Below, in pieces: positions 20,244 through 60,669 of a stretch of DNA of 64,000 nt. Made by a program: the position numbers and the translations under genes. The stretch covers positions 62,001 to 126,000 of the forward strand of contig NZ_CP011971.1 in assembly GCF_001579945.1 (NCBI RefSeq). The letters are read 5' to 3'. This stretch comes from Steroidobacter denitrificans. Lineage in GTDB: Bacteria > Pseudomonadota > Gammaproteobacteria > Steroidobacterales > Steroidobacteraceae. The stretch's first letter is position 1; each line of letters begins with the position of its first letter. The notes beneath the pieces are model-generated. The model did no database searches. It saw nothing but the letters and a program-made list of their open reading frames with translations, and had not been told where the DNA came from.

Positions 20244-20254
20244 CGGAGAACGCG

Positions 20255-21022: not shown

Positions 21023-21040
21023 TCGGAGCATGAAACGAGC

Positions 21041-22656: not shown

Positions 22657-22668
22657 GGCGGGAACTCG

Positions 22669-23751: not shown

Positions 23752-24499
23752 GCAGTTCACGAGCCGGATCCATGACAATGGTGTGGCCGAGGTGGTGCTC
23801 GATCGCCCGCCGGTCAACGCACTCAATTCCGCCGGCTGGTATGCGCTCGCCGAGTGCATCGCGGCACTCGGTGAAAATACGGCCGTGCGCGTCATCGTCA
23901 TTCGCGCGCAAGGTCGAGGCTTTTGTGCGGGTGTCGACATCAAGGAACTCGATGCCGACTCCAGTCTGATCGTGGCTGTGAATGCCGGCAACTACGCCAC
24001 CTTCAAGGCAGTGCATCTCAACAAGGTGCCGGTGATTGCGGCGGTACACGGCTTCGTGCTCGGCGGCGGCATCGGCGTCTGCGGCGCGGCCGATATCGTC
24101 ATCGCCGCCGAGGATGCGAGCTTCGGCCTGCCCGAGGTGGATCGCGGCGCGATGGGCGGCGCGGCGCACCTGCAGCGCATGTTCGGCGTACAGAAGACGC
24201 GATACCTGTTTTTCACCGGTGAAATGATCGGTGCGCCGGAAGCCTTCCGGCTCGGCGCCATCGAGCGGGTCGTGCCGCGCGAGCGGCTGCGGGATGAGGC
24301 GATGGCCATTGCCGCCAAGATCGCCGCGAAAAGTCCGGCCATGATCCGTATTGCCAAGGAAGCGCTCACCGGTATCGAGGACGGCAATCTCGAGGTAAAA
24401 TATCGCTGGGAGCAGGGATTTACCTTGCAGGCTTACATGAGCCCGGACTCGGCGGAGACGCGGCGTGCCTTTGTTGAGAAACGCGATACCCGGTTCTAG
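23744..24499 (+). CDS. echA20: Enoyl-CoA hydratase/crotonase, EchA20-like
   Basis: 251 residues, crotonase fold. Oxyanion-hole segments are GRGFCAGVDIKEL (about 62-74) and HGFVLGGGIGVCGAADIVIA (about 98-117). In the steroid ring C/D pathway EchA20 hydrolytically opens a ring of the 5-oxo HIP-CoA-derived intermediate and is encoded beside ipdAB and ipdC. It starts within the end of ipdC (8-base overlap). The paralogue identity is inferred from position rather than a diagnostic residue. Confidence 0.8.
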   Translation: MSEQFTSRIHDNGVAEVVLDRPPVNALNSAGWYALAECIAALGENTAVRVIVIRAQGRGFCAGVDIKELDADSSLIVAVNAGNYATFKAVHLNKVPVIAAVHGFVLGGGIGVCGAADIVIAAEDASFGLPEVDRGAMGGAAHLQRMFGVQKTRYLFFTGEMIGAPEAFRLGAIERVVPRERLRDEAMAIAAKIAAKSPAMIRIAKEALTGIEDGNLEVKYRWEQGFTLQAYMSPDSAETRRAFVEKRDTRF

Positions 24500-24565
24500 T
24501 ACGGCCGGGCTCAAGCGTAGGGACGACCCTGATGAATATCCAACCCGATCGTGTTTGGGCAGCGC

Positions 24566-25720
24566 ATGGACCTTGATTTCACGCCGCAGCAACAAGCGTT
24601 TCGCGCCGAAGCGCGCGCCTGGCTGCACGATCACATACCGACGGCACCGCTCAAGAGCTACGATACCCGCGAGGGCTTCGAACAGCATCGCGCCTGGGAA
24701 GCCAAGCTCGCCGAAGGCGGCTATAGCAGCGTGACCTGGCCGAAGGAGTTGGGCGGCCGTGGTGCCAACCTTATCGACTGGTTGATCTTCGAGGAAGAGT
24801 ACCACGCCATCGACGCACCGATGCGCGTGAATCAGAACGGCATTCTATTGCTCGGTCCCACCCTGATGGAATTCGGTACGGTGGAGCAGAAGGCACGCTT
24901 CCTGCCACGCATGGCCCGCTGCGATGACATGTGGGCGCAAGGCTGGAGTGAACCGAACGCCGGCTCGGACATGGCCAATATCGCTAGCAAGGCGGTTCGC
25001 GACGGCGATGAGTATGTCATCAACGGCCAGAAGATCTGGTCAACGCGCGCGGTATTCGCGAACTGGCTGTTCGGCTTGTTCCGCAGCGATCCACAAAGTG
25101 TCCGGCATCATGGGCTCAGCTATCTGCTGGTGCCGCTGGATGCCAAGGGCATCACGATCCGGCCCATCGTGGCGCTGAACGGCAAGCAGGCTTTCGCCGA
25201 GGTGTTTTTCGATGACGTGCGCGTCAGCATTGCGAATCGTATCGGCGAGGAAGGCCAGGGCTGGAATGTGGCGATGGCCACGGCCGGCTTCGAGCGCGGC
25301 CTGCTGTTGCGTTCGCCGGCACGCTTTCAGCGTACGGCGCAGCGTCTAGTGGAACTGTACCGACGTCATCAGGCGAGCGCCGATCGTGATCCCTCGATCC
25401 GCGAAGGCGTACTGAAAGCATGGATGGACGCCGAGGCGTACAACCTCGCAAGCTACTATACGGTAGGCCGGCTGCTGAAAGGCGGGCGCATCGGCGCCGA
25501 GGCCAGCACCAACAAGATTTTCTGGTCCGAACTCGATCTGCAGATGCACGAAACCGCCATACGGATTCTTGGGCCGCGCGCCGAACTCATCGACGATCCC
25601 GAAGTACGGGACTGGCTCGAAGGATTCTTGTTTGCGCAAGCCGGCCCAATCTATGCGGGCAGCAATGAGATCCAGCGCAATATCATTGCCGAGCGGGTGC
25701 TTGGCCTGCCGAAATCCTGA
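24566..25720 (+). CDS. ipdE1: Acyl-CoA dehydrogenase, large-type subunit (IpdE1-like)
   Basis: 384 residues from the ATG at 24566; a GTG at 24551 is an alternative. It has the ACAD fold with WSEPNAGSDMANI, KIWSTRA and the C-terminal YAGSNEIQRNIIAERVLG. At the position where medium-chain ACADs have catalytic Glu (YEGT) it has Ala, as in isovaleryl-type and steroid ACADs that place the base elsewhere. It is followed 11 bases later by a smaller, divergent ACAD, the alpha/beta arrangement of heterotetrameric steroid ACADs. It likely desaturates a CoA ester late in ring C/D breakdown. Confidence 0.83.
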   Translation: MDLDFTPQQQAFRAEARAWLHDHIPTAPLKSYDTREGFEQHRAWEAKLAEGGYSSVTWPKELGGRGANLIDWLIFEEEYHAIDAPMRVNQNGILLLGPTLMEFGTVEQKARFLPRMARCDDMWAQGWSEPNAGSDMANIASKAVRDGDEYVINGQKIWSTRAVFANWLFGLFRSDPQSVRHHGLSYLLVPLDAKGITIRPIVALNGKQAFAEVFFDDVRVSIANRIGEEGQGWNVAMATAGFERGLLLRSPARFQRTAQRLVELYRRHQASADRDPSIREGVLKAWMDAEAYNLASYYTVGRLLKGGRIGAEASTNKIFWSELDLQMHETAIRILGPRAELIDDPEVRDWLEGFLFAQAGPIYAGSNEIQRNIIAERVLGLPKS

Positions 25721-25731
25721 AGGGGCGAGTC

Positions 25732-26805
25732 GTGGATTTCACCTTCAACGAGGAGCAACTGGCGCTGCGCGATTCGGTCAGCCGTTTCCTGATGAACGAG
25801 GCGGCGCCCGAACTGCTGCGTGAGATCTGGGAGACCGGCGGCGGACGGGCGCCCGAATTACGCGCCAAGTTTGCCCAGCAAGGCGTGACGGCGCTGTCGG
25901 TTCCAGAGGCTTATGGCGGCCTTGGGCTGGCCGATGTGGATTGGGCGCTGATCACCGAGGAACTGGGCTATTACGCCATTCCGGATTCGCTGGCCGATAC
26001 GGTTTACGTTGCCACCGGCCTGCTGTGCGCCGTGCCGGAAGCCGAGTCGCTGCGGGCGCAGTGGTTGCCGGGAATCGCCGCGGGCACCGCGCGCGTGTCG
26101 ATCGAGCATCCGGTCAATCCATGGGTAGCCGATGCACACCTGGCCGACCTGGTACTGGCGTTTCGCACCGAGGCCGACGGTATCCTCGAATTGCATGCGT
26201 TGGCCGGTGCCGGGCTGGCTCGTTCGGCGATCGGCAGCATCGACGGATCGCGCCGCCTCTCCGTGCTGGCGCAGCAGCCGTTGGATGCATCGACCCGGTT
26301 GTTGCGCGGCGAAGCCGCACGGACGATTGCGGAGGCAACGCTAGACCGGGCGACGGTCGCGGTGGCCGGACAGCTGGTCGGTTTGGCGCAGCGCATGCTC
26401 GATCTGTCGGTGGACTATGCGGCACAGCGCAAGCAGTTCGGGCGGCCGATCGGTTCCTTTCAGGCGGTCAAGCATCATCTTGCCGATGTCGTCACCCGGA
26501 TAGAGTTCGCCCGGCCGGTGCTTTATCGCGCGGCGCTGGCCTTGCAGCGCAACGAGCGAGATCGTGCCGCGCTGGTCTCACACGCCAAACTCGCCTGTGC
26601 CGAAGCCGCCTGGACTGCGGCGCGCAAGGGCATCCAAGTGCATGGCGCGAGCGGCTATACCTGGGAGGTCGACCTGCAGATGTTCATGAAGCGTGCCTGG
26701 GTGCTGGATGCCGCCTGGGGCGATCGCGGCTTTCACAAAGCACGTCTCGGCGAGGCGCTGCTGCGCGATGATGCACCGCTCGGACCTGCCGCTACGTTGT
26801 ATTGA
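25732..26805 (+). CDS. ipdE2: Acyl-CoA dehydrogenase, small-type subunit (IpdE2-like)
   Basis: 357 residues from a GTG at 25732 with AGGGGCG upstream. It is shorter than canonical ACADs: the beta-domain substrate loop is reduced, and the protein lacks the C-terminal EIQRN motif. The flavin-contact segment IQVHGASGYTWE (about 301-312) and KQFGRPIGSFQAVKHHLAD are present. This matches the second chain of alpha2beta2 steroid ACADs such as IpdE1-IpdE2. The partner is the gene immediately upstream. Confidence 0.83.
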   Translation: MDFTFNEEQLALRDSVSRFLMNEAAPELLREIWETGGGRAPELRAKFAQQGVTALSVPEAYGGLGLADVDWALITEELGYYAIPDSLADTVYVATGLLCAVPEAESLRAQWLPGIAAGTARVSIEHPVNPWVADAHLADLVLAFRTEADGILELHALAGAGLARSAIGSIDGSRRLSVLAQQPLDASTRLLRGEAARTIAEATLDRATVAVAGQLVGLAQRMLDLSVDYAAQRKQFGRPIGSFQAVKHHLADVVTRIEFARPVLYRAALALQRNERDRAALVSHAKLACAEAAWTAARKGIQVHGASGYTWEVDLQMFMKRAWVLDAAWGDRGFHKARLGEALLRDDAPLGPAATLY

Positions 26806-26823
26806 GAAAGGAAGGACGATTCC

Positions 26824-27978
26824 ATGCCAGAAGCCTTTATCGTCGATGCGCTGCGCTCTCCTACGGGCCGGCGTGGCGGTTCGCTTGCCCAGGTGCACGG
26901 TGCCGATCTCGGTGCGCATGTCATCAAGGCACTCGTCGAGCGCAATGCCGTGCCGGCGGCCGAGTACGATGACGTCATCTTCGGCTGTGTCGATACCATC
27001 GGTGCCCTGGCAGGCGACATCGCCCGCACCGCGTGGCTTGTAGCGGGTATGCCGCTCAACGTTCCCGGGACGACGATCGATCGGCAATGCGGCAGTTCAC
27101 AGCAGGCGGTGCATTTCGCCGCACAGGCGGTGATGAGCGGGACGCAGGATGTGGTGCTGGCCGGCGGCGTACAGACCATGTCCAGCATTCCGATTTCCTC
27201 GGCGATGCTGGCGGGGCGGCCGCTGGGGTTTACGACGCCATTTGCGGAAAGCAAGGGCTGGCAGGCGCGCTTCGGGGATGCCCCGGTGAATCAATTCTAT
27301 GCCGCACAACGCATCGCCGATCACTGGAATATCAGTCGCGAGGCCATGGAGATCTTTGCCAAGGAGAGCCATGATCGTGCGCTCAAGGCGATGGCGGAGG
27401 GGCGTTTTGATCGCGAGGTGGTGCCGTTCGGCGAGTTTCTGATGGATGAGACCGCGCGCGTCAGCACCTTGGAGAAGATGGCGACGCTGCAACCGGTCGA
27501 TCCGGCGTATCCGAAGATCACCGCGGCGGTATCCAGTTCGGTGTGTGATGCGGCCTCGGCCGTGTTGGTGGTTTCGGAGGCCGCCTTGAAACGCTACGGC
27601 CTCAAGCCGCGTGCGCGCATCGTGCACCTCTCGGTGCTGGCCGACGATCCGATCTGGCATCTCACCGCGCCGATTCCGGCGACTCGCAATGCGCTCAAGA
27701 AAGCCGGTATGAAACTCGAAGATATCGATCTGGTGGAGATCAACGAGGCCTTCGCCTCGGTGGTGATGGCCTGGCTGCAGGAAACCGGCTATCCGCACGC
27801 CCGGATCAACGTGAACGGGGGCGCGATCGCGCTCGGCCATCCGCTCGGGGCGAGCGGTACCAAGCTGATGACGACCCTGCTGCATGAGCTCGAGCGCACC
27901 GGCGGACGCTATGGACTGCAAACCATGTGCGAGGGCGGTGGGCAGGCCAATGTGACGATCATTGAACGAATGGGATAA
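26824..27978 (+). CDS. fadA6: Acetyl-CoA acyltransferase, FadA6-like thiolase
   Basis: 384 residues. The nucleophile Cys89 is in [10 protein letters not shown]. The acid/base residues are in [15 protein letters not shown] (about 337-351) and the C-terminal [10 protein letters not shown] complete catalytic set contrasts with the thiolase-fold protein at 21472. Thiolase of this type removes acetyl-CoA after ring opening in the steroid ring C/D pathway (FadA6/ScdF position). It sits between the ipdE1-ipdE2 pair and an SDR gene. Confidence 0.88.
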
Positions 27979-27983
27979 AGATC

Positions 27984-28859
27984 ATGGGTATTTGTGACGG
28001 ACGTACCGTAATCATCACCGGCGCCGGCGGCGGCCTGGGCCGTGCCTATGCGCTGGCGTTCGCGGCCGAGGGCGCCAGCGTCGTCGTCAACGATATCCGG
28101 CGCGATGCGGCGGAAGCGGTGGTCGCACAGATCGTGGCCGCCGGCGGTCGAGCGTTGGCCGATAGCGGTGACATTACGACCTTCGTTGGCGCGCAGGGGA
28201 TCGTCGACGCCGCGCTGTCGGCGTTCGGCGAGGTGCATGTACTGGTCAACAATGCCGGTGTATTGCGCGATCGCATGTTCCTGTCGCTCAGCGAAGATGA
28301 CTGGGACACCGTGATGCGTGTGCATCTGAAGGGACACTTTTGCCTCGCCAGTGTGCTCGGCCGGCGGTGGCGGGATGCGAGCAAGGCGGGTAAACCGCTC
28401 GATGCACGCATCATCAATACCAGCTCCGGTGCGGGTTTGCAGGGTTCGGTGGCGCAGAGCAATTATTCGGCTGCCAAGGGCGGCATCGCTGCACTGACAC
28501 TGGTGCAGGCCGTGGAACTGAAGCGCTATGGCATCACCGTCAACAGCCTGGCGCCGGCGGCGCGCACGGCGATGACCGAGGGGGCGATGCCCGAGATGGT
28601 GAAAAAACCAGCCAGCGGCTTCGACGTCTGGGATCCGATGAATGTCGCCGCGATCGTCGTCTGGCTCGGCAGCCCGCTGTCGGCGCATGTCAGCGGGCAT
28701 TGTTTCGAGGCCAAGGGTGGAGAACTGTCGATCGCCGAGGGCTGGCACACCGGCAAGATCACCGACAAGGGCGCTCGCTGGGAGCCGGCGGAGCTGACCG
28801 CGGTCATCGATAAGCTCATCGCCGAAGGCAAGCCGGCGCAACCGGTGTACGGCAGCTAG
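27984..28859 (+). CDS. SDR of the multifunctional-enzyme hydroxyacyl-CoA dehydrogenase type
   Basis: 291 residues. TGAGGGLGRAYALAFAAEG at about residues 12-30, NNAGVLRDRMF near 88-98, catalytic Ser and NYSAAKGG. The layout and GGGLG motif match the (3R)-hydroxyacyl-CoA dehydrogenase domain of peroxisomal multifunctional enzymes and an SDR carried by mycobacterial steroid clusters. It probably oxidises a hydroxyacyl-CoA made by a hydratase in this operon. It starts 6 bases after the thiolase stop. It differs from the IpdF-like SDR at 31178. Confidence 0.83.
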   Translation: MGICDGRTVIITGAGGGLGRAYALAFAAEGASVVVNDIRRDAAEAVVAQIVAAGGRALADSGDITTFVGAQGIVDAALSAFGEVHVLVNNAGVLRDRMFLSLSEDDWDTVMRVHLKGHFCLASVLGRRWRDASKAGKPLDARIINTSSGAGLQGSVAQSNYSAAKGGIAALTLVQAVELKRYGITVNSLAPAARTAMTEGAMPEMVKKPASGFDVWDPMNVAAIVVWLGSPLSAHVSGHCFEAKGGELSIAEGWHTGKITDKGARWEPAELTAVIDKLIAEGKPAQPVYGS

Positions 28860-28868
28860 GCGCGCGGC

Positions 28869-29987
28869 ATGGATCTGAGGCTTACCGAAGAGCAGCGTCA
28901 GATCGCGCAGTCCGTGGAGCAGCTGTTGGCGCGGGCGAGCGACTCGACGCGCATGCGTCACGCGGCCTTCGATGGCGGCGGTTTCGACGCCGAACTATGG
29001 GCGCAGCTTGGCGAACTCGGAGCGTGCGGGCTGCATATCCCCGAGGCGCATGGCGGTCTGGGTCTGGGCGCCACGGAGCTGGCGTTGGTCGCAGAGGCGC
29101 TCGGCCGTCGGCTGGCCTGCGTTCCTTGGCTGGAGAGTCTCGTCCTGGCCGGCACGACCCTCATGTCTGTCGGCGAGGAGATCGTTGCGGCACGCTGGCT
29201 GCCGTCGCTGGCCAGCGGCGAGCAGGTGTTGACGCTGGCTACCGGCCTGCTGGAGAACGCGCCACCGGCGGTACGACGCGAGGGTGAGTGCTGGCAACTC
29301 GATGGCCTGCTGCCGGCCGTGCCGGCGGCGATGGCGGCGCACTGGCTGCTGCTGTCCGCGCAGGCCGGGCAAGAGCGGCTGCTGCTGGCCGTCGATCTGG
29401 ATGCGCCCGGCGTGAGCCGGCGCCCGAGAGCCAATTATGACGCCACGCGGCCGGTCGCAGAAGTGCGCTTGCAGGGCGTGCAGGTACGCAACAGCGAATG
29501 CCTGGCCAGCGGTGCGGCGGTCGATCGTGCGCTTGAACAGGGCCGGCGGCTGGCGGCTGTCGTGCTGGCCGCCGAGCAAGTCGGTGTGGCGCAACAATGT
29601 CTGGATATGACTGTCGCCTACCTGGGAGAGCGCGTGCAGTTTGGTAAGCCGCTGGCAACCTTCCAGGCGCTCAAGCATCGCTGCGCGACCATGATGGTGG
29701 CGGTGGAACTGGCACGCTCGGCGGTGCAGGGTGCCGCCCATGGGTTGGATGGCCAGCCGGATGAGACGCGCATGCTGCGTCTTGCCACCATGGCCTGCAG
29801 CCTGGCCGACGATGCGGCGCAGTACTGCACCCAGGAGGCGATCCAGCTGCATGGCGGTGTCGGCTTCACCTGGGAGTACGATCCGCATCTGTATTTCAAG
29901 CGTGCACAGGCAGCCCGTGCCTGGCTCACGCCACCGGCATGGCGCGAGCGGCTGGCCGCTGCGTTGTTGGACGAGGCTGTCGCATGA
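28869..29987 (+). CDS. Acyl-CoA dehydrogenase, small-type subunit
   Basis: 372 residues. N-terminal MDLRLTEEQRQIAQSVEQLL, the IPEAHGGLGLGATELALVAEALG stretch, and the flavin-contact IQLHGGVGFTWEYDPHLYFKRA (about 324-345) identify a small-type ACAD subunit. It lacks the C-terminal EIQ motif and pairs with the next gene, which starts inside its stop codon. Together they should form a second alpha/beta ACAD. FadE-type enzymes in this location act on CoA esters of the HIP skeleton. Confidence 0.82.
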   Translation: MDLRLTEEQRQIAQSVEQLLARASDSTRMRHAAFDGGGFDAELWAQLGELGACGLHIPEAHGGLGLGATELALVAEALGRRLACVPWLESLVLAGTTLMSVGEEIVAARWLPSLASGEQVLTLATGLLENAPPAVRREGECWQLDGLLPAVPAAMAAHWLLLSAQAGQERLLLAVDLDAPGVSRRPRANYDATRPVAEVRLQGVQVRNSECLASGAAVDRALEQGRRLAAVVLAAEQVGVAQQCLDMTVAYLGERVQFGKPLATFQALKHRCATMMVAVELARSAVQGAAHGLDGQPDETRMLRLATMACSLADDAAQYCTQEAIQLHGGVGFTWEYDPHLYFKRAQAARAWLTPPAWRERLAAALLDEAVA

Positions 29988-31153
29988 CGGACATCGGTCA
30001 CAAGGCGTTTCGCGCCGAGGTGCTCGCCTGGATGCAGGCGCATCTGCAAGGCGAGTTCGAACCGTTGCGCGGTCGCGGTGGACTGGGCGACGCCGGTTAC
30101 GATCCCGAGCTTGCCAAGCGCTGGGAGCAGCAGCTCGCACAGGGTGGCTGGGTGGGCATCGGTTGGCCCAGACAGCATGGTGGGCGTGAGTTGCCATTAT
30201 CTCAGCAGGTGGCATTTCACGAAGAATACGTGCGCGCCGGCGGTCCGGGACGCCTTGGGCATATCGGCGAGACCTTGCTGGCGCCCACGCTGATGGCGTT
30301 CGGTACGCCGGCACAGCAGCAGCGCTTCCTGCCCGGTATTCGCTCGGGCACGCAGTACTGGGCCCAGGGCTATTCCGAGCCGAGTGCCGGTTCTGATCTG
30401 GCAAATGTGCAGACTCGCGCCCGCCTCGACGGTGATCACTGGGTCATCGACGGCCAGAAGATCTGGACCTCCTGGGCGCACCAATCGGACTGGATTTTCG
30501 TGGTCGCACGCTGCGAGCCCGGCTCACGGCGCCACCATGGCTTGGTGATGTTGCTGGTACCGTTGCGGCAGGTGGGCGTCACGATCCGGCCGATCAGGCA
30601 GATCACCGGCGAGTCGGAATTCAACGAAGTGTTCTTCGACGGTGCGCGCACGGAGGCGTCACTGCATCTGGGAACCCCCGGCGAAGGCTGGAAAGTGGCG
30701 ATGGCGCTGCTCGGCTTCGAGCGCGGGGTGTCGACACTGGGCCAGCAGGCAGGGTTCGAGCGTGAATTGGCGTGTCTCATCGAGGTGGCCCGGCGCAATG
30801 GTGCGGCGCGTGATCCGCTGCTGCGCCAGCGCATCGCACAGGCCGCGGTGACGCTCGATGCGCTGCGCTGCAATGCATTGCGCGTGCTCGCCCAGGACGA
30901 TGCTGGCGCGGGCAGCGCGCCGGTGTCGCGCGAAGCCTATATTGCCAAATATGCCTGGTCGAACTGGCGCCGCGACTTCGGCCGCCTTGCAGCCGACGTG
31001 CTCGGTGCAGCAGCCTTGCTCACCGATGAGGATCCGTTGACACAAAAACTGCAGCGGATCTGGTTGTTCAGCCGTTCCGATACGATCTACGCGGGCACCA
31101 ACGAGATCCAGCTCAACTTGATCGCCGAGCGCGCGCTCGGCATGCCACGCTGA
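29984..31153 (+). CDS. Acyl-CoA dehydrogenase, large-type subunit
   Basis: 389 residues from the ATG at 29984, overlapping the preceding stop (ATGA). Conserved elements are GWPRQHGGRELPLSQQ, YSEPSAGSDLANV, KIWTSWAHQSDWIF and YAGTNEIQLNLIAERALG. Ala occupies the medium-chain catalytic Glu position (YAGT), as in its paralogue at 24566. FadE30-like members begin ring B/C-D acyl chain oxidation on HIP-CoA, so that is a plausible role. Substrate is not determined by sequence. Confidence 0.83.
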   Translation: MTDIGHKAFRAEVLAWMQAHLQGEFEPLRGRGGLGDAGYDPELAKRWEQQLAQGGWVGIGWPRQHGGRELPLSQQVAFHEEYVRAGGPGRLGHIGETLLAPTLMAFGTPAQQQRFLPGIRSGTQYWAQGYSEPSAGSDLANVQTRARLDGDHWVIDGQKIWTSWAHQSDWIFVVARCEPGSRRHHGLVMLLVPLRQVGVTIRPIRQITGESEFNEVFFDGARTEASLHLGTPGEGWKVAMALLGFERGVSTLGQQAGFERELACLIEVARRNGAARDPLLRQRIAQAAVTLDALRCNALRVLAQDDAGAGSAPVSREAYIAKYAWSNWRRDFGRLAADVLGAAALLTDEDPLTQKLQRIWLFSRSDTIYAGTNEIQLNLIAERALGMPR

Positions 31154-31177
31154 CGGCGAAATCATTTTGGAAAACCC

Positions 31178-31963
31178 ATGAGACCACCTCCTGAGTATGT
31201 ACCCGCGCATGCATTGCTGCGCGACAAGACCGTGCTGGTGACCGCTGCGGCCGGTGCTGGAATCGGCTTTGCGGCCGCGAAACGATGCGCCGAAGAAAAC
31301 TGCCGGGCCTTGGTCATCAGCGACACTCATGAACGCCGGCTCGCCGAGGCCGTGGCCGCGATTCGCAAGGAGACAGGACTGGAGGCCGTGTATGGTCAGC
31401 TCTGCGATATTTCCCAGGAGGAGCAGGTCCAGGGGCTGTTCGAGTTCGCCGCAGCCAGGCTTGGCGGAGTCGATGTGTTGATCAACAACGCGGGTCTGGG
31501 CACTAGCAAAAGCATCGTCGAGATGCAGGATGAGGAGTGGGCCAAGGTCATCGATGTCACGCTGACCGGCACGTTCCGCATGATCCGGGCAGCGCTCAAG
31601 GTCATGCGCCCGCGCGGACGCGGTGTGATCGTCAACAATGCCTCGGTGCTCGGCTGGCGCGCCCAGGCCGAACAGGCTCACTATGCGGCCGCCAAGGCGG
31701 GTGTGATGGCGTTGACGCGCTGTGCGGCCATCGAGGCCGCAGAGTTCGGGATACGGGTCAATGCCGTGGCGCCGTCGATCGCCATCCATGCCTTCCTGCG
31801 CAAATCCGCATCGGATGAATTGCTTTCCCAACTAGTGGCTCGTGAGGCTTTCGGGCGCGGCGCCGAACCCTGGGAAGTGGCCAACGTGATGGTCTTTCTG
31901 GCCAGCGACTATTCGTCTTACATGACTGGCGAGGTGGTCTCGGTCAGCTCGCAGCGTGCCTGA
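31178..31963 (+). CDS. ipdF: SDR, IpdF-like hydroxy-HIP-CoA dehydrogenase
   Basis: 261 residues. The nucleotide motif is the unusual TAAAGAGIG rather than TGxxxGIG, as in mycobacterial IpdF (TAAAGTGIG as I recall it). Shared segments are NNAGLG, VNNASVLGWRAQ, HYAAAKAGVMALTRC and FLASDYSSYMTGEV. IpdF oxidises the 5-hydroxyl of the HIP-CoA-derived intermediate to a ketone, which makes ring cleavage by EchA20 possible. This is one of the strongest markers that the operon is a steroid ring C/D degradation operon. Confidence 0.88.
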   Translation: MRPPPEYVPAHALLRDKTVLVTAAAGAGIGFAAAKRCAEENCRALVISDTHERRLAEAVAAIRKETGLEAVYGQLCDISQEEQVQGLFEFAAARLGGVDVLINNAGLGTSKSIVEMQDEEWAKVIDVTLTGTFRMIRAALKVMRPRGRGVIVNNASVLGWRAQAEQAHYAAAKAGVMALTRCAAIEAAEFGIRVNAVAPSIAIHAFLRKSASDELLSQLVAREAFGRGAEPWEVANVMVFLASDYSSYMTGEVVSVSSQRA

Positions 31964-40605: not shown

Positions 40606-41847
40606 GTGGCTGAATCTGTAGTGCAGGCGGGTTCGTCCCGTGGCGGGGCGCTGGCCGGTATCAAGGTGCTGGATTTCGGGCAGATGGTTTCGGCGCCGTA
40701 TTGCGCCAAGCTGTTCGGCGATTATGGCGCGGACGTGATCAAGGTCGAACTGCCGAATGGCGATGCCGCCCGCAGGGCCGGGCCGTTCCCGGGTGACATT
40801 TCCCACCCCGAGAAGAGCGGACTATTCTTCATCAATAACACTAACAAGCGCGGCATCACCTGCAATGTGTCCAGTACGGCCGGGCGCGAGTTGTTCCTCG
40901 GCCTGCTGCGCTGGGCGGACGTGCTGATCGAAAACAATCTGCCGCAGCAGATGCGTACATGGAATCTCGACTACCCGCAATTGCAGGCGGCCAATCCGAA
41001 TCTGGTGGTCATCTCCATCACTCCGTTCGGACAAAGCGGACCTTATAGCGCCTGGAACGGCTATGATCTGAATGCGTTCCATCTCTCCGGGGCCAGTTCA
41101 CGCTACTGTGGCCGGCCCGGGGAAATGCCCTTGGAACACGGTACATTCTCCGCCGACTACTATGGCGCCATCGCCGGGGCGACCTGGGGAATGGCCGCCG
41201 TCTACGGCCGCGATCTGGTGGGCGGCGGTCAGCAGGTCGATGTGTCCTGCGCCGAGGTGATCGCAGCTTCGTTCGTCGGTAGCCAGAACATTGGACTGGT
41301 GGCGCAAGAGGGCTATTTCGACAAGCGCACCGGCGTCGGCATGCCGCTGGGCGCGCCGGCAACCATATTGCCCTGTAAAGATGGACATGTGTGGATGCTG
41401 GCGCTCGAGAGCGGCCAGTGGGCAGGCCTTTGCAAGGTCATGGGCGATCCGGAGTGGGCGACCCTGGAGATGTTCAAGGACATGAACACGCGCGCCCAGA
41501 ATGCCGACATCCTGTATTCCTTCATTCAGGAATGGACGGCCGAACATACCAAGATGGAAATCATGGAAAAATGTCAGGCTGCCGGTTGTCCGATCACCGC
41601 GGTATTCACGATCGCGGAAGCTGCAGAGCAACCGCATCTGCAGGCACGTGATTATTTCGTCGATATCGAGCATCCGGACCTTGGACGCATCCGTAATCTC
41701 GGTGCGCCGTTCAAGCTGTCGGCCAGTCCCGGCGGTCCCGTCGAGCCGGCGCCGCGCCTGGGGCAGCATAATGCGGAGGTGTATGGCCGGTTGTTCGGTC
41801 TGCAGACGGCGTCGATTGCCTCGTTGCAGGATCAAGATGTCATCTGA
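40606..41847 (+). CDS. CaiB/BaiF type III CoA-transferase 1 of five
   Basis: 413 residues from a GTG at 40606. N-terminal VLDFGQMVSAPYCAKLFGDYGADVIKVELP is classic for the family. The catalytic Asp184 aligns by spacing (FSADYYG, 21 residues before the VGGGQ segment). Type III enzymes transfer CoA directly between acids through a Asp-bound anhydride/thioester. It starts a run of five same-strand paralogues, separated by 30 bases from the next. The acceptor acid is unknown. Confidence 0.85.
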   Translation: MAESVVQAGSSRGGALAGIKVLDFGQMVSAPYCAKLFGDYGADVIKVELPNGDAARRAGPFPGDISHPEKSGLFFINNTNKRGITCNVSSTAGRELFLGLLRWADVLIENNLPQQMRTWNLDYPQLQAANPNLVVISITPFGQSGPYSAWNGYDLNAFHLSGASSRYCGRPGEMPLEHGTFSADYYGAIAGATWGMAAVYGRDLVGGGQQVDVSCAEVIAASFVGSQNIGLVAQEGYFDKRTGVGMPLGAPATILPCKDGHVWMLALESGQWAGLCKVMGDPEWATLEMFKDMNTRAQNADILYSFIQEWTAEHTKMEIMEKCQAAGCPITAVFTIAEAAEQPHLQARDYFVDIEHPDLGRIRNLGAPFKLSASPGGPVEPAPRLGQHNAEVYGRLFGLQTASIASLQDQDVI

Positions 41848-43120: not shown

Positions 43121-44389
43121 ATGTCTGAACAAAGCTTATCCGAAAAACCACTCGCAGGGCTGCGAGTCCTCGATGTATCGACCATGCTGGCCGGTCCCTA
43201 CGGAGCGACGCTGCTCGGTGATCTTGGCGCTGATGTCATCAAGGTGGAATCGCATCTCGGTGATGACAGCCGGCGACTAGGAGCCATGCGCGATGGTGAG
43301 TGCGGTCCCTTTCTGAGCCTCAATCGCAGCAAACGCGCCATTGTCATCGACATGCAGTTGCCGCAGGGGCAGGAGTTGTTCGCCAAGCTTGCCGCGACTA
43401 CGGATGTGCTGATCACCAACGTGCGCGAGCCGGCTCTCAGCAAGCTCGGACTGAACTACGAACAGGTGAAGGCGCATCGACCGGATATCGTCTGGATCGG
43501 CGTCACGGCGTTCGGGCCGGATGGGCCGTATGCGGGGCGCCCCGGAATCGACTTCCTGACACAGGGTTACTGCGGTGTCCTCGGGCTCAACGGCGAGCCG
43601 GACGGCGGCCCGGTACGGACCGGCTTCCCGGCCGTCGATGTCATCACTTCCCTGTTGGTCAGCAATGCCGCGCTCGCCGCGTTGCGTGTGCGCGATCGTA
43701 CAGGTCAGGGCCAGCGCGTCGAGGTGTCGCTGCTGGATGCGCTGATGCATGCTCAGGCAAGTTCCATCGGCAGCTATCTGGCCACCGGCGAGCCGCCCAG
43801 GCGCACCGGTAATCGCAGCCAATACTTTGCACCATCCGGCGTCTATCCGACCAAGGATGGTCGGCACGTGATCATCACCACGCCGAGTGAAAAGTTCTTC
43901 GGCCATGTCTGCCGGGCTCTGGATGCGGAGTGGGATACCGATCCGCGCTTCCACGATATTACCTCGCGGCTCGCCAATCACGATGAGCTCGATCGCGTCA
44001 TGTCCGAGCGGACGCGGCAATTCAATCGTGATGAGCTGGTCGAGCGCTTGATTGCCGCGGATGTGCTGACTGCACCGATCAACGATGTCGATGATGTCGT
44101 CAATGATCCGCAGATCCGCCACAATCGGATGATCGTCGGAGTGGAGCATCCGCTGCTCGGAAATGTGGAGGTGACCGGCGTGCCGATCCGATTCTATAGC
44201 ACCCCGTGCCGCGTCGAAAAGCATCCGCCGATGCAGGGTGAACATACGCGCGAACTGCTGGCGACGCTGGGTTATACCAATACGGATATCGATGCGCTGA
44301 TCAGTGCCGGCGTGGCCGCGGATCGGCAGGATATGCTGCGCCGGCGCGAGGCCAGGAAAGCCCGCCGGGCACAAGCGCAGCGCGCCTGA
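43121..44389 (+). CDS. CaiB/BaiF type III CoA-transferase 3 of five
   Basis: 422 residues from the ATG at 43121, chosen over a TTG at 43109 because GAGAGGG lies upstream. RVLDVSTMLAGPYGATLLGDLGADVIKVES is intact and catalytic Asp173 is in FPAVDVITS, 21 residues before RTGQGQ. The C-terminal tail is Arg/Lys/Ala-rich (RRREARKARRAQAQRA), which the sister genes lack. Substrate unknown. Confidence 0.85.
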   Translation: MSEQSLSEKPLAGLRVLDVSTMLAGPYGATLLGDLGADVIKVESHLGDDSRRLGAMRDGECGPFLSLNRSKRAIVIDMQLPQGQELFAKLAATTDVLITNVREPALSKLGLNYEQVKAHRPDIVWIGVTAFGPDGPYAGRPGIDFLTQGYCGVLGLNGEPDGGPVRTGFPAVDVITSLLVSNAALAALRVRDRTGQGQRVEVSLLDALMHAQASSIGSYLATGEPPRRTGNRSQYFAPSGVYPTKDGRHVIITTPSEKFFGHVCRALDAEWDTDPRFHDITSRLANHDELDRVMSERTRQFNRDELVERLIAADVLTAPINDVDDVVNDPQIRHNRMIVGVEHPLLGNVEVTGVPIRFYSTPCRVEKHPPMQGEHTRELLATLGYTNTDIDALISAGVAADRQDMLRRREARKARRAQAQRA

Positions 44390-54962: not shown

Positions 54963-55028
54963 AGCGTAAAGGAACAGCAACGATAATCAGACCGACTCAG
55001 GCCTGAGGCAGGCCGGGTCTGGGCGAAT

Positions 55029-55070: not shown

Positions 55071-55103
55071 CCGGAATAGTCAGGTTGAGAAGAAGGAGTT
55101 CGA

Positions 55104-55744: not shown

Positions 55745-56917
55745 ATGAGTGGAAGCGACACATTTCGCGCCGAAGTGCGGCAATGGCTGGAGGCCAATTG
55801 CCCGCCTTCGATGCGCATGCCGGTCAAGACCGACCAAGATATGGTGTGGGGTGGTTCCCGTATCACCTTCCATTCTGCGGACCAGCGTCTTTGGTTCGAA
55901 CGCATGCGCGATCGCGGCTGGCTCGTCCCGGGTTGGCCGAAGGCTTACGGTGGCGGCGGCCTCGAGCCGCGCGAACTGCGAATCCTCGAGAAGGAGATGC
56001 GCGCGCTGGGTTGTCGTCAGCCGCAGTATAACCTCGGAATCTGGATGCTCGGCCCGGTGCTGCTCGAATTCGGCACCGAACCACAGAAGTTGGAGCACCT
56101 CGTGCCCATGGCACGCGGCGAGGTACGTTGGTGTCAGGGCTTCTCGGAGCCGAGTGCCGGTTCGGATCTTGCGAGTCTGAGAACCGCTGCGGTGCGTGAT
56201 GGCGAGGATTTCGTCATCACGGGCCAGAAAATCTGGACCAGCCATGGCGATAAGGCCGACTGGATGTACGCCCTGGTGCGAACCGATCCGCAGGCCAAGA
56301 AACAGCAGGGCATCAGTTTCATTCTGCTCGACATGAAGACGCCCGGCATTATCGTGCGCCCCCTCGGGCTGATCAGCGGCAAGTCGGAGTTCTGCGAAGT
56401 ATTCTTCGACGCCGTGCGAGTACCGGCCAGGCACGTCATCGGGGGCGTCAATCAGGGCTGGCGCGTAGCGAAAAAATTGCTCGAACACGAGCGGGCCGCA
56501 ATGTCGACGTTGTCCTCAGGCGCGGCCCCATCGTTTGATATGCTGACCATCGCAAAGTCGTATTTGGATGCGGCAGGTCCGGTATGGCGGGACCGCGTAG
56601 CTGCCGCGCTGATGGACCAGCAAGCCTTCTCGTTGACCATGCGGCGTCTGCAGGAATTGATGCTGGCACGTGAAGACGCATCCGGCGTCAGTTCGATCAT
56701 GAAGCTGGTGCAGACCGAGCAGGAATCCGCCAAGCATGAACTGCTGCAGCAGCTCATGGGGCAGCGCGCCCTGAGCCTGGACAGTGAGGGTTTCACTCCC
56801 GAGGAGCTCGCGGTGTGCCGATTCTGGCTCTATACCAAGTCGTACACCATTGCCGGCGGCTCATCGGAAATCCAACTTAATATTATTGCCCGGCATGTAC
56901 TCGGACTGCCGACGTGA
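55745..56917 (+). CDS. Acyl-CoA dehydrogenase, large-type subunit
   Basis: 390 residues. GFSEPSAGSDLASLRTAAVRD and KIWTSHGDKADWMYALVRTD are standard. The C-terminus reads IAGGSSEIQLNIIARHVLGLP: Gly replaces the medium-chain Glu, as in the other large-type chains of this window. It is followed by a small-type ACAD (a 7-base gap), making a third alpha/beta ACAD pair. Likely substrate is a steroid-derived CoA ester. Confidence 0.83.
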   Translation: MSGSDTFRAEVRQWLEANCPPSMRMPVKTDQDMVWGGSRITFHSADQRLWFERMRDRGWLVPGWPKAYGGGGLEPRELRILEKEMRALGCRQPQYNLGIWMLGPVLLEFGTEPQKLEHLVPMARGEVRWCQGFSEPSAGSDLASLRTAAVRDGEDFVITGQKIWTSHGDKADWMYALVRTDPQAKKQQGISFILLDMKTPGIIVRPLGLISGKSEFCEVFFDAVRVPARHVIGGVNQGWRVAKKLLEHERAAMSTLSSGAAPSFDMLTIAKSYLDAAGPVWRDRVAAALMDQQAFSLTMRRLQELMLAREDASGVSSIMKLVQTEQESAKHELLQQLMGQRALSLDSEGFTPEELAVCRFWLYTKSYTIAGGSSEIQLNIIARHVLGLPT

Positions 56918-56924
56918 GGGCGCG

Positions 56925-58064
56925 GTGACACTCCTGCTAAACGACGAACAGCGTTTGCTGCGCGACAGCGCACGAGACTTTCTGGCGACACGGTCACCGG
57001 TTGCAGCGCTGCGAGCGCTGCGTGATCGCGGCGACGAGCGCGGTTATGACCCACAACTGTGGCATGAGATTGCCGAACTCGGCTGGCCGGCAGCAGTACT
57101 GCCTGAAGCGTACGGCGGTCTGGGAGTCGGTTACAAGGGGCTCGGCGCGGTGTTCGAACAGATTGGTCGGACGCTTGCAGCGACCCCTCTTTTACCCACT
57201 GTCGTATTGGGCGGAGGACTGCTCGCCGAGGCCGGTAGTACGGCATTGCGTGATTTCTGGCTACCGAAGATCGCTGCCGGTGAGGCGCTGTTTGCCCTCG
57301 CTCTCGAGGAGGCGCCGCGTCATGATCCCACGCAGGTAACATTGCGTGCATGGAGTGAGGCGGGTCACTGGCGGCTGGATGGCGACAAGCAGTTCGTACT
57401 GGATGGCCATATTGCCGATCGGATGATCGTGGTGGCGCGCAGTTCGGGTACAGCGGGGCAGCAGGCGGGACTCAGCCTGTTCCTGGTGGATCCGGCCACA
57501 CCCGGCGTGCAGATCGAGCGTACTTCATTGGTCGATAGCCGCAATGCAGCACGCGTTCGCTTCTCGCAGGTCCAACTCGATGGCGGGGCGCTGATCGGTG
57601 CGCCTGATCAGGCTTTTGCCGTGCTCGATGCGGTGCTCGATCGGGCGCGAGCCTGTATTGCCGCCGAACTACTGGGTGTGATTACTGAAGCGTTCGAGCG
57701 TACCGTCGCTTACCTAAAGGAAAGAGTGCAATTCGATGTGCGGATTGGTTCATTCCAGGCCCTGCAACACCGTGCTGCACGGCTGCATGTAGAGATCGAA
57801 CTGCTGCGCAGCAGTGTTGCTGCGGCGCTCGAGGCTATGGATGCTGCAGGCAATGAGGCTGCCGAACTCGTGAGCGTTGCCAAGGCGCGCGCTTCCGATC
57901 TGAGTGAAAAGGCTCTCAACGAGGCGGTGCAGATGCACGGTGGAGTTGGTGTCACGGATGCTCTCGAGATTGGTTTTTTTCTCAAGCGTGCCCGCGTGCT
58001 GCAGCAAACCTTCGGCGATGGTTCGTATCACCGCGATCGTTATGCACGGTTGCGGGGGTTCTGA
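56925..58064 (+). CDS. Acyl-CoA dehydrogenase, small-type subunit
   Basis: 379 residues from a GTG at 56925 with GAGGG upstream. LLLNDEQRLLRDSARDFLATR start, VLPEAYGGLGVGYKGLGAVFEQIGRTLA and VQMHGGVGVTDALEIGFFLKRARVLQQTFGD near the end. It lacks the C-terminal EIQ motif and is the partner of the preceding ACAD. A role in steroid side-chain or ring beta-oxidation fits. Confidence 0.82.
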   Translation: MTLLLNDEQRLLRDSARDFLATRSPVAALRALRDRGDERGYDPQLWHEIAELGWPAAVLPEAYGGLGVGYKGLGAVFEQIGRTLAATPLLPTVVLGGGLLAEAGSTALRDFWLPKIAAGEALFALALEEAPRHDPTQVTLRAWSEAGHWRLDGDKQFVLDGHIADRMIVVARSSGTAGQQAGLSLFLVDPATPGVQIERTSLVDSRNAARVRFSQVQLDGGALIGAPDQAFAVLDAVLDRARACIAAELLGVITEAFERTVAYLKERVQFDVRIGSFQALQHRAARLHVEIELLRSSVAAALEAMDAAGNEAAELVSVAKARASDLSEKALNEAVQMHGGVGVTDALEIGFFLKRARVLQQTFGDGSYHRDRYARLRGF

Positions 58065-58188
58065 CGAGTTCTGGTACCGGAAAATACCGATCTGTTGTTC
58101 GCCTTTATCGAATCGGACTAGGCGCCAATAATCATCGTTGGCGGCATCGTTCCCAACCGCAGCTTGGATTTCAAGTGAGAGGATCGAT

Positions 58189-58971
58189 ATGACAGGGCGC
58201 CTGAAAGGAAAGGTTGCCTTCATTACCGGAGGCGGTTCGGGTATCGGTGCGGCGACGGCATGCCGCTTCGCGGAAGAAAAGGCTATCGTGATCATCTGCG
58301 GCCGGCGCAAGGAATTGCTCGACCAAGTCGTTGCCGCTATCTGCGCCAAGGGCGGTCAGGCATATGCAGTGCAGGTCGACGTCAGCAATGAGGATCAGTA
58401 CGTCGATGCGATCAACGATGCGGCGCGATGCCACGGGCGTCTCGACATCCTGGTCAACAACGCCATGGCCTATTCTGCTGGACCGATCGAAGCCACATCG
58501 ACAGCCGCTTGGCATGTCAATTTTTCGACTACGCTCGATGGCACTTTTTGGGGTACACGGGCGGCGATGCAACTGATGCATCAGCAGGGTATGGGCGGAT
58601 CCATCGTGAATGTCTCATCGATTTGCGGCCTATCCGGCGCTGCCTACATGGCGGGCTACAGTGCGGCCAAGGCGGCTATCATCAATTTCTCACGCGCCGC
58701 GGCAGCCGAAGGCGGCGAGCACAATATCCGCTGCAACGTCGTGATACCCGGTACGGTGGAGACTCCACCGATGCTCGAGATGCTGAAGAGCGAGGCGTTG
58801 CGCAGCAAGACCGAAAAACTGATTCCCATGCGTCGTGTAGGACAACCCATGGAGGTCGCCAACGCTATTCTTTTTCTGGCTTCGGATGAGGCGTCGTACG
58901 TGAACGGTTCCACACTGACGGTGGACGGCGGCCAATCTTCCACCCTGCTTACTTCCGCTGCATTCGATTGA
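58189..58971 (+). CDS. SDR, candidate hydroxysteroid dehydrogenase
   Basis: 260 residues from the ATG at 58189. TGGGSGIG (about 13-20), NNAMAYSAG, catalytic Ser (NVSSICGL) and YSAAKAA, and a C-terminal NGSTLTVDGGQ. Its neighbours (NTF2-like and OYE-like genes) recall BaiA beside BaiE/BaiCD in bile-acid operons. It likely oxidises a hydroxysteroid or hydroxyacyl intermediate with NAD. It ends with TGATG at the next start. Confidence 0.83.
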   Translation: MTGRLKGKVAFITGGGSGIGAATACRFAEEKAIVIICGRRKELLDQVVAAICAKGGQAYAVQVDVSNEDQYVDAINDAARCHGRLDILVNNAMAYSAGPIEATSTAAWHVNFSTTLDGTFWGTRAAMQLMHQQGMGGSIVNVSSICGLSGAAYMAGYSAAKAAIINFSRAAAAEGGEHNIRCNVVIPGTVETPPMLEMLKSEALRSKTEKLIPMRRVGQPMEVANAILFLASDEASYVNGSTLTVDGGQSSTLLTSAAFD

Positions 58972-59606
58972 TGGCCATGGATAATTCCCGACTCCTGGCG
59001 CGCGTCGATCGTCTCGAATCCATCGAGGAGATTCGGCAGCTCGCTGCCAAGTATTCGCTGTCCCTCGATATGCGTGACCTGGACGCACATGTGAACCTAT
59101 TCGCCCCTGATATTCGCGTCAGCCATGAAAAAGTCGGGCGGATACACCTGAAGGCCTGGTTGGACGATACGCTGCGTAACCAGTTCACTGGGACTTCACA
59201 TCATCTGGGCCAGCACATCATCGAGTTCAAGGACCCGGACCACGCGATCGGCGCCCTGTATTCCAAGAACGAGCACGAGTGCGGCGGCGAGTGGGTCATC
59301 ATGCAGATGCTGTATTGGGATGACTACGAACGCATCGAGGGGCGCTGGTATTTCCGGCGCAGACTGCCGTGCTATTGGTATGCCACGGACCTCAACAAGC
59401 CGCCGGTGGGAGATATGAAAATGCGTTGGCCGGGGCGGGAGCCGTATGACGGCGCTTTTCATGAGCTGTTCCCGTCGTGGAAGACATTCTGGGCGACACG
59501 TCCAGACCGGGACAAGCTGCCGGAGGTGGCCGTGCCGGCGCCAGTCGAACATTTCCTCGAAACCATGCGGCGTGGTGCGCCGACGCCAAAGATCCGGGTG
59601 CGCTGA
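58971..59606 (+). CDS. NTF2/SnoaL-fold protein with BaiE-like active-site residues
   Basis: 211 residues from the ATG at 58971 (58977 also possible). Tyr28 and Asp33 have the same spacing as Tyr30/Asp35 of the bile-acid 7alpha-dehydratase BaiE, and His77/His78 aligns with its His83 region (SHHLGQH). The three residues are a general feature of dehydratase-type SnoaL proteins, so this supports but does not prove a steroid dehydratase. The C-terminal 60 residues are longer than BaiE. Confidence 0.65.
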   Translation: MAMDNSRLLARVDRLESIEEIRQLAAKYSLSLDMRDLDAHVNLFAPDIRVSHEKVGRIHLKAWLDDTLRNQFTGTSHHLGQHIIEFKDPDHAIGALYSKNEHECGGEWVIMQMLYWDDYERIEGRWYFRRRLPCYWYATDLNKPPVGDMKMRWPGREPYDGAFHELFPSWKTFWATRPDRDKLPEVAVPAPVEHFLETMRRGAPTPKIRVR

Positions 59607-59607
59607 T

Positions 59608-60669
59608 ATGACGAGGCTTTTCGATCATCTGCAACTCGGCGATATCGCGCTTTCCAATCGCGTGATCATGGCACCGATGACGCGCTCACGAGCCGAAGCC
59701 GGCGCCGTGCCGACCGCTCTCATGGTCGAGTATTATCGGCAACGCGCCAGCGCCGGGCTCATCGTTTCCGAAGGTATCGCGCCATCGCCTCATGGCATCG
59801 GTTACTGCCGCACCCCAGGCATCTATAATAGCGAGCAGGTCGTCGGCTGGCACCGGGTGACCGATGCCGTGCATCAGGCTGGCGGGCGCATCGTCGCCCA
59901 GATCATGCATTGCGGCCGTGTGGGTTCCCGCCTCAATAAACCTGCCGATGCAAGGACGGTGGCGCCTTCTGCCGTACGTGCAGCCGGAATGGTCCATACC
60001 GATGTCGCCGGCATGCAGAATCACGATCTGCCTCGATCATTGGCACTCGAGGAGATTCAGGGCGTGGTCGATGAGTATGCAGCCGCGACGCGGAATGCCC
60101 TGGCAGCGGGATTCGATGGAGTGGAGTTGCACTGTACCAGCGGCTATTTGCCGATGCAGTTCATGGCGACCAACACCAATTTACGCACCGACTCCTATGG
60201 AGGATCTGTGCACAATCGGGTGCGTTTCGTGATCGAGACGCTGGAGGCCATGGTCGGTGTGGCCGGCGACCGGGTCGGAATGCGCATTTGTCCAGGCAAC
60301 CCGTTCAATGACGTGATCGATCCGGAACCGGCAGCGACCTATGGGGCGCTGCTTTCCGGCAGTGCCCATTTGAATCTGACTTATCTGCACGTGATTCGCT
60401 CACCGCTCGAGGACTTCGATGCCTTCGGGTTTGCGCACGAGCATTTCAAAGGGCCGCTTATCCTCAATGATGGTTTCGATGGCGCTTCCGCTTCGCAGGC
60501 GCTGGCCGAGGGCTGTGGCGCAGCGATTTCCTTTGCGCGTCATTTCATCGGCAATCCCGACCTTGTGCGTCGTCTGCGTGAGGGTTTACCGCTCAACGAC
60601 TTCGATTCCAAGACGCTCTATACGCCGGGATCGGCAGGCTATACCGACTATCCCTGCGCACCGACCTGA
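59608..60669 (+). CDS. Old-yellow-enzyme family NADH:flavin oxidoreductase
   Basis: 353 residues. OYE barrel: LSNRVIMAPMTRSRAEAGAV at the N-terminus and GFDGVELHCTSGYLPMQF at about 168-185, followed by RTDSYGGSVHNRVRF. The substrate-binding pair of OYEs (His-x-x-Asn or His-x-x-His) reads His175-Cys-Thr-Ser178 here, so the Asn is Ser. It is FMN-dependent and should reduce C=C bonds conjugated to a carbonyl; BaiCD/BaiH of bile-acid metabolism belong to a related group. Confidence 0.83.
   Translation: MTRLFDHLQLGDIALSNRVIMAPMTRSRAEAGAVPTALMVEYYRQRASAGLIVSEGIAPSPHGIGYCRTPGIYNSEQVVGWHRVTDAVHQAGGRIVAQIMHCGRVGSRLNKPADARTVAPSAVRAAGMVHTDVAGMQNHDLPRSLALEEIQGVVDEYAAATRNALAAGFDGVELHCTSGYLPMQFMATNTNLRTDSYGGSVHNRVRFVIETLEAMVGVAGDRVGMRICPGNPFNDVIDPEPAATYGALLSGSAHLNLTYLHVIRSPLEDFDAFGFAHEHFKGPLILNDGFDGASASQALAEGCGAAISFARHFIGNPDLVRRLREGLPLNDFDSKTLYTPGSAGYTDYPCAPT

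Follow-up and report, generated by a model that had tools for sequence, protein, structure and literature searches.

The window analysed here is a stretch of 64,000 bases of Steroidobacter denitrificans (genome bases 62001-126000; the genome is one contig of 3,467,246 bases with a stated completeness of 100). At 55745-60669 it carries five open frames on the + strand in one run, which encode two acyl-CoA dehydrogenases (ACADs), a short-chain dehydrogenase/reductase (SDR), a SnoaL/NTF2 protein, and an alkene reductase of the old yellow enzyme (OYE) family. An earlier note on this DNA described ACAD, SDR, NTF2-like, and OYE genes in one run as a module like that of bile-acid 7-dehydroxylation (bai); the gene classes are borne out by the open frames and by Pfam, and two ACADs are present. 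Pfam finds Acyl-CoA_dh domains in both ACADs, adh_short_C2 in the SDR (1.1e-59), SnoaL_4 in the SnoaL protein (9.9e-20), and Oxidored_FMN in the OYE (1.6e-67), and no NCBIfam model matches the SnoaL protein at E <= 0.001. The run is very probably the C12-dehydroxylation module steB-steC-steD (steC = hsh1, steD = sor1) of proteobacterial steroid and bile-acid degradation, located downstream of scd1A-scd1B. Its genes are assigned as follows.

55745..56917, + strand: first ACAD, putative orthologue of Scd1A, the C5 side-chain ACAD of bile-acid degradation (64-66% identity to a Comamonas testosteroni ACAD; published neighbour series)
56925..58064, + strand, GTG start: second ACAD, putative orthologue of Scd1B (56% to the second member of the C. 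testosteroni pair)
58189..58971, + strand: SDR, predicted SteB, a 12-ketosteroid reductase giving the 12beta-alcohol (identity to SteB-position SDRs; published gene order)
58971..59606, + strand: SnoaL/NTF2 protein, predicted SteC/Hsh1, a 12beta-hydroxysteroid dehydratase (orthology, clade, and NTF2 fold of an AlphaFold2 model)
59608..60669, + strand: single-domain OYE-family alkene reductase, predicted SteD/Sor1 (identity to SteD-position proteins; Oxidored_FMN only)

The steB stop and the steC ATG overlap as TGATG at 58971 (an alternative steC ATG lies at 58977), and the steD ATG comes one base after the steC stop. With such overlapping and abutting ends, the three genes read as one tightly coupled unit.

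SteC orthology and conservation of the ste module

SteB, SteC, and SteD are known from mutants of C. testosteroni TA441 and Pseudomonas stutzeri Chol1, in which, according to excerpts of the published reports, SteB gives the 12beta-hydroxyl, SteC dehydrates at the stage of 9,17-dioxo-hexanorandrostan-5-oic acid (HIP), and SteD reduces the double bond. Passages of PMC13101464 describe SteC as a SnoaL/NTF2 dehydratase for the C12beta-hydroxyl and SteD as an alkene reductase, both acting before C9 reduction. Judged by its relatives, the SnoaL protein of the window is an orthologue of SteC/Hsh1, and 12beta-hydroxysteroid dehydratase activity is assigned to it by orthology.

A genome scan for relatives of the SnoaL protein found 241, and the best 80 of these, which lean to close relatives, were used. 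They come from Steroidobacteraceae, Thauera, Aromatoleum, Azoarcus, Comamonas, Pseudomonas, Massilia, and others, with identities of 78-87% that cover nearly the full protein in the Comamonas, Azoarcus, Stutzerimonas, Pseudomonas, and Steroidobacteraceae orthologues. The nearest matches in the named genome collection are Steroidobacteraceae. Identity is 79-80% to C. testosteroni NFYY023, 81% to Stutzerimonas stutzeri K1, and 82% to Azoarcus Aa7.

A tree of 32 SnoaL proteins unites the window protein, with support of 100/99, with those at the SteC/Hsh1 position in C. testosteroni, Stutzerimonas, Azoarcus Aa7, and Aromatoleum toluclasticum, and BaiE, the 7alpha-dehydratase of gut clostridia, falls outside this clade. 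For this tree 34 paralogue loci were read; L170 gave no frame, and L109, L112, L113, L120, and L171 were left out, being partial or unconvincing. From five long frames (L102, L105, L115, L116, and L118) only the C-terminal 215-230 residues were used, and BaiE, LinA, and the structure 3ef8 entered as fragments. The BaiE composition was flagged as unlike the other rows. The root is at midpoint and the deep forks are weak (37/78), and therefore the tree separates the SteC and BaiE groups without ordering them.

The SDR is 64% identical to the SteB-position protein of C. testosteroni and 69% to that of Pseudomonas helleri, with 35% to the P. helleri SteA position, and the OYE is 56% and 62% identical to the SteD-position proteins of the same two species. 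The likeness to SteB-SteC-SteD of C. testosteroni TA441 and to Hsh1-Sor1 of P. stutzeri Chol1 thus comprises three orthologues (64, 79-80, and 56% to NFYY023), their order, and their strand. It extends to the surroundings, as the ste region of C. testosteroni also holds HIP-cluster genes: the NFYY023 orthologue of the SnoaL protein lies between the steB-position SDR and an OYE, and genes of the ipdC, echA20, and fadE31 types are a few kb away. Successive tags of strain CNB-2 in Table 1 of PMC8399759 read SteA (RS06490), SteB (RS06495), ORF7/Hsh1 (RS06500), ORF6/Sor1 (RS06505), and TesB (RS06510). All three ste genes of the window are open frames, and within the family their identities to the Steroidobacteraceae locus L001 are 79% (steB), 86% (steC), and 75% (steD).

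Synteny was counted in the 80 loci, eight of which have too little flank, leaving 72 scorable. With thresholds of our own choosing within 4 kb (45% for steA, against P. helleri SteA, 44% for steB, and 50% for steD), the order steA-steB-steC-steD is found in 61 of the 72, and the gene run is therefore not a product of chance. The other 11 fall short of all four genes: nine have steA and lack both steB and steD, one has steB and steD without steA, and one has steD only. The gene steC is patchy in the family: of 120 genomes sampled, 16 have it, this one among them, and none of the nine other same-genus genomes listed does. A Variovorax match (44%) lies in a different kind of cluster, and a matching Cupriavidus plasmid record is unannotated at that place. 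A monoterpene or alicyclic pathway, brought up by the Thauera and Aromatoleum matches, was dropped because Vibrio and Novosphingobium plasmid loci and the literature indicate steroids. The Vibrio locus (L086) is on plasmid pVa1 of the fish-associated Vibrio alfacsensis and carries a steC orthologue (74%) with genes for a FadD3-family ligase, an alkene reductase, and a Rieske protein; by their families, these are plasmid-borne genes of steroid-degradation type.

The ACAD pair of C. testosteroni stands in the series ACAD, AMP-ligase, metallo-hydrolase, ACAD, ACAD, AMP-ligase, which fits the tags in Table 1 of PMC8399759 (RS06815 Scd2A, RS06820 ligase, RS06830 Scd1A, RS06835 Scd1B, and RS06840 ligase). 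The two ACADs of the run match Scd1A and Scd1B as putative orthologues, named by gene position. Outside the window, the genome encodes at 799260-800465 a thiolase-type protein that is 78% identical to the C. testosteroni Sal1-position protein, and the DUF35-MaoC protein next to it is 66% identical to the Shy1 position. A Sal1-type match occurs in six of seven genomes tested, with none in G085. From the Scd1AB-, Sal1-, and Shy1-type matches, the genome holds bile-acid type side-chain genes.

A steA gene not found in the genome

In C. testosteroni, according to excerpts of the published work, the 12alpha-to-12beta inversion begins with SteA. A steA-type SDR gene lies <=4 kb from steC in 70 of the 72 scorable loci, and the close loci L001 and L003 are among them. 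The window module differs from that of C. testosteroni in that steA is neither in front of it nor found in the genome, and in that scd1AB lies directly upstream of steB: scd1B occupies the place of steA and ends 124 bases before the steB start. Even so, steA is an adjunct of the ste cluster and not a feature of SteC itself.

Several observations weigh against the C12 assignment, and the first group concerns SteA. The L001 SteA finds no match in this genome at E <= 1e-40, whereas it finds matches of 83-90% in three steC-bearing relatives of the family and of 73% in Aa7. Four of the 15 other steC-bearing family genomes were tested; G085 (100%) is, by its coordinates, the source of L001, so three are independent. 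P. helleri SteA gives 34 SDR matches in this genome, the best at 42-43%, little above other SDRs. A SteA elsewhere in the genome is rejected, as these two query proteins find no orthologue. Because SteA initiates the inversion, the strain would use another 12alpha-dehydrogenase or only 12-keto/12beta substrates, and the classical inversion may be absent here. The second group concerns the references and the context. The comparison with C. testosteroni uses NFYY023 genes named by order and position and that with Stutzerimonas uses K1, in place of a direct comparison with the TA441, CNB-2, and Chol1 proteins. The second round of side-chain degradation is less clear, since the best match to the C. 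testosteroni Scd2A-position ACAD is 50% and the StdA1-position ligase shares only 31% identity with the AMP-ligase at 37011. The C-terminal third of the AlphaFold2 model of the SnoaL protein is of low confidence. As regards the literature, ORF6 (steD) is reported to be induced by testosterone too (a passage of PMC4810484), one paper words Hsh1 as adding and not eliminating a hydroxy group (a passage of PMC12175502), and the passages returned by a literature search hold no report of this organism growing on bile acids.

A variant of the C12 assignment gives the failure to find this gene more weight: without steA, steBCD would serve only 12-keto/12beta-hydroxy steroids, and not 12alpha-hydroxy bile acids, or it would be a decaying remnant. 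The steA-type gene near steC in 70 of 72 scorable relatives, the negative search for an orthologue here, and the presence of scd1B in its place speak for this variant. On the other hand, steB, steC, and steD are open and well conserved relative to L001, the Scd1AB-, Sal1-, and Shy1-type side-chain genes are retained, and another SDR among the 34 SDR-like matches could stand in for SteA. The variant is possible, although on this evidence we consider it rather unlikely.

The C7 alternative and other BaiE-like proteins of the genome

The earlier note had suggested a 7-hydroxysteroid dehydratase branch, in which the SnoaL protein would act on 3-oxo-4-ene bile acids as a 7alpha-hydroxysteroid dehydratase of the BaiE/Hsh2 type within a bai-like module. 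The bile-acid side-chain type genes of the genome would suit this, and BaiE is the second-best PDB sequence match of the SnoaL protein (4l8p, E 6e-4). The likeness extends to the fold. The AlphaFold2 model, built from an alignment of 44 sequences (the window protein plus 43 of the 80 loci), has an NTF2 fold and a mean predicted local distance difference test (pLDDT) score of 71.7, with ten-residue blocks at 70-96 up to residue 130 and most blocks after 140 at <55. Its top Foldseek matches are 3ef8 ('putative scytalone dehydratase'), four BaiE entries (ranks 2-5), and the dehydrochlorinase LinA. VIA-align gives Z scores of 15.9 for BaiE 4l8o, 15.6 for 3ef8, 15.2 for LinA, 14.9 for BaiE 4n3v and 4leh, and 14.3 for 4l8p. 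A structural comparison does place BaiE among the top matches, and a better fit to non-dehydratase SnoaL families is not clearly seen, as 3ef8, BaiE, and LinA are tied or nearly tied. The resemblance of the SteC AlphaFold model to BaiE was already printed in April 2026 (a passage of PMC13101464).

The note was also right that the NTF2 protein keeps the Tyr-x4-Asp and the His of BaiE: Y26, D31, and H75, in the count that begins with the ATG at 58977, correspond to BaiE Y30, D35, and H83, and none of the three varies among the 44 aligned SteC rows, one of which is the window protein. The numbering and roles of Tyr30, Asp35, His83, and Asp106 are those that we take to hold for BaiE. However, the same three columns are retained in 3ef8 and in five of five other BaiE-clade rows aligned, and therefore the set is not diagnostic of C7. 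At BaiE position 106, the Asp is kept in the BaiE-clade proteins of Aa7 and A. toluclasticum and is replaced by Asn in the window protein.

Phylogeny and scores decide against C7. BaiE lies in another supported clade (98/95), with an Azoarcus Aa7 SnoaL protein next to atc-like genes and its 89% A. toluclasticum homologue. The BaiE fragment reaches 65.6 bits with that Aa7 protein, compared with 41.0 for a different protein of this genome and only 21.4 for that of the window. C. testosteroni and Stutzerimonas proteins also belong to the BaiE clade; thus, clade membership alone is no proof of C7 activity. Moreover, the orthologues of the SnoaL protein act on C12, and C. testosteroni carries such an orthologue but is listed without Hsh2 in excerpts of PMC8399759. 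By clade, score, and orthology, including an identity of 79-80% to the protein at the SteC position in C. testosteroni, the family of which acts on the C12beta hydroxyl, the identity as a C7 dehydratase was rejected, and this reading is very improbable.

BaiE and SteC share the NTF2/SnoaL fold, the aligned Tyr/Asp/His, and the class of steroid dehydratases. The window SteC is 32% identical to BaiE over 111 aligned residues (28% for TA441 SteC, by a passage of PMC13101464), belongs to a different clade, and has a C-terminal extension of ~70 residues. The target of SteC is C12, beta to the C9 ketone, whereas that of BaiE is C7 of a 3-oxo-4-ene. Hsh2 of Sphingobium sp. Chol11 and Azoarcus sp. Aa7 is likewise an NTF2-like steroid dehydratase in degraders, but unlike SteC it acts, by the published excerpts, on C7 of 3-keto-Delta4 bile acids; the window protein is 28-30% identical to two presumed Hsh2 proteins (28% to the Aa7 one), both of which carry that name by presumption and lie in the other clade.

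BaiCD is an OYE with a C-terminal half. The window OYE shares the N-terminal barrel and lacks the C-terminal part; a BaiCD identity was rejected, as the OYE reaches 110.9 bits against a cut-off of 825 and its match is confined to positions 3-202 of a model of 642 positions. This model also gives below-cut-off matches in 14 of 14 control genomes. Of the bai enzyme classes proposed for the run and its surroundings, the dehydratase stands in its BaiE fold and Tyr/Asp/His, but the OYE is a single-domain NemA-type protein and not of BaiCD type, the ACAD pair matches Scd1AB, and two of the five CaiB genes match genes near atc in Aa7.

AtcABC is an enzyme of the xanthine-dehydrogenase type. The BaiE-clade SnoaL protein of Aa7 adjoins genes for the FAD and molybdenum subunits of an atc-like enzyme. 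Being closest to BaiE and beside atc-like genes, it is in our view likely Hsh2, which Aa7 is reported, in excerpts, to need for the anaerobic breakdown of 7alpha-hydroxy bile acids. This genome has a comparable protein, ~658 kb from the gene run of the window.

Genome G000:C1:779364-779855 (L172:9364-9855): second SnoaL_4 protein, 163 aa, the most BaiE-like of this genome (BaiE clade, 97/94)

Its gene is flanked by those for the FAD subunit and the large subunit of an atc-like molybdoenzyme, and this large subunit is 59% identical to that of Aa7. The arrangement resembles Azoarcus Aa7 (L160/L117), and the two SnoaL proteins are only 31% identical. This protein is a better candidate 7alpha-dehydratase than the window protein. 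The earlier description of the genome as aerobic-type is also off, as the genome has this atc-like locus and fits a denitrifying steroid degrader. The literature searched yielded no mention of a steA-less ste module in S. denitrificans or of a BaiE-clade protein in its atc-like locus.

Two further regions were observed. At genome G000:C1:881490-885108, genes for an SDR and a SnoaL_4 protein adjoin one for a BaiCD/2-enoate-reductase-like protein, which at 330.7 bits stays below the cut-off. This arrangement is more bai-like than the window, and its SnoaL protein (L161) falls outside the BaiE clade in the tree. At G000:C1:2375799-2378807, a SnoaL_4 match with three internal stops, possibly a broken copy, lies beside a BaiCD-like protein (324.9 bits).

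A generic SnoaL hydratase or isomerase with a non-steroid substrate is highly unlikely. The breadth of the SnoaL_4 family (12 matches in this genome) speaks for it; opposed to it are an orthology over almost the whole protein to a steroid dehydratase characterised by genetics, the conserved gene order, and a HIP cluster in the same window.

HIP cluster, neighbouring genes, and proposed route

Apart from the ste module, the window contains the following features.

19368..31963, + strand: HIP (C/D-ring) cluster with ipdA, ipdB, DUF35/ChsH2-C OB-fold, Ltp-like thiolase, ipdC, echA20, fadE31, fadE32, fadA6, SDR, fadE33, fadE30, and ipdF (names assigned by order)
40606..41847, + strand: CaiB-type CoA-transferase, orthologous (78% over 400 aa) to one near atc-like genes of Azoarcus Aa7
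43124..44389, + strand: CaiB-type CoA-transferase (PF02515), orthologous (75% over 404 aa) to a second one by the Aa7 atc-like genes
45740-46948: CaiB/CoA_transf_3 protein by Pfam

Along 19368-31963, family scans find first a CoA_trans protein and then, at the ipdB position, a protein that matches no family within the limits applied. A DUF35/ChsH2-C OB-fold protein, an Ltp-like thiolase, a FabK-like protein, and an enoyl-CoA hydratase come next. They are followed by a pair of ACAD-size proteins, a thiolase, and an SDR, and a further two ACADs with a last SDR close the series. For strain DSM 18526, Table 1 of PMC5380842 gives ACG33_00310 as ipdA, 00315 as ipdB, 00330 as ipdC, 00335 as echA20, 00340 as fadE31, 00345 as fadE32, 00350 as fadA6, 00355 as the SDR, 00360 as fadE33, 00365 as fadE30, and 00370 as ipdF. 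The order in the window equals that of ACG33_00310-00370, in which the tags leave room for two genes between ipdB and ipdC, and the position of the cluster suits tags of so low a number.

CaiB-type CoA-transferases span 40606-46948. The earlier note had placed CaiB genes near the run, and they are there: Pfam finds CaiB/CoA_transf_3 in the second and third listed, and more are found by translation and BLAST. Among five CaiB genes compared with the Aa7 set, those at 40606 and 43124 stand out as listed, and the other three are <=31% identical to anything there. The identity of these two to atc-near genes suggests that they may belong to the anaerobic ring pathway rather than being BaiF. A DUF2889 protein (48035-48784) lies beside CaiB and hydratase genes, and the related locus L001 keeps it next to the corresponding CaiB gene. 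Methylmalonyl-CoA mutase (51817-53982) and MeaB (53979-54962) genes stand between the CaiB genes and the run; with an epimerase-like VOC protein (42.9 bits against a cut-off of 114.95), they form a group at 51817-55577 directly upstream of scd1A, which would fit the use of propionyl-CoA from steroid breakdown.

The route proposed for the module begins with SteB, which would reduce a 12-keto steroid to the 12beta-alcohol. After the loss of rings A and B, SteC would take water off 12beta-hydroxy-HIP (12beta-hydroxy-9,17-dioxo-hexanorandrostan-5-oic acid), with His75/Asp31 as a base that, together with Tyr26, could drive a beta-elimination to the enone. Such a base-driven elimination would suffice because the hydroxyl is beta to the C9 ketone. 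SteD would then reduce the enone to plain HIP, a step open to an ordinary single-domain OYE without need of a BaiCD-type enzyme, and HIP would enter the HIP cluster of the same window. That the enzymes work likewise in this organism is our inference, as are the roles of the residues and the natural substrate.

By orthology, the run is a known module, of which the BaiE-likeness was rightly seen and the ring position was wrong (C7 instead of C12). A specific and testable C12 reading thus replaces that of gut-type 7-dehydroxylation. For SnoaL proteins in general, Tyr-x4-Asp and His do not tell C7 from C12 activity. For this strain, the prediction is that steBCD without steA should handle 12-keto and 12beta-hydroxy, and perhaps not 12alpha-hydroxy, bile acids.

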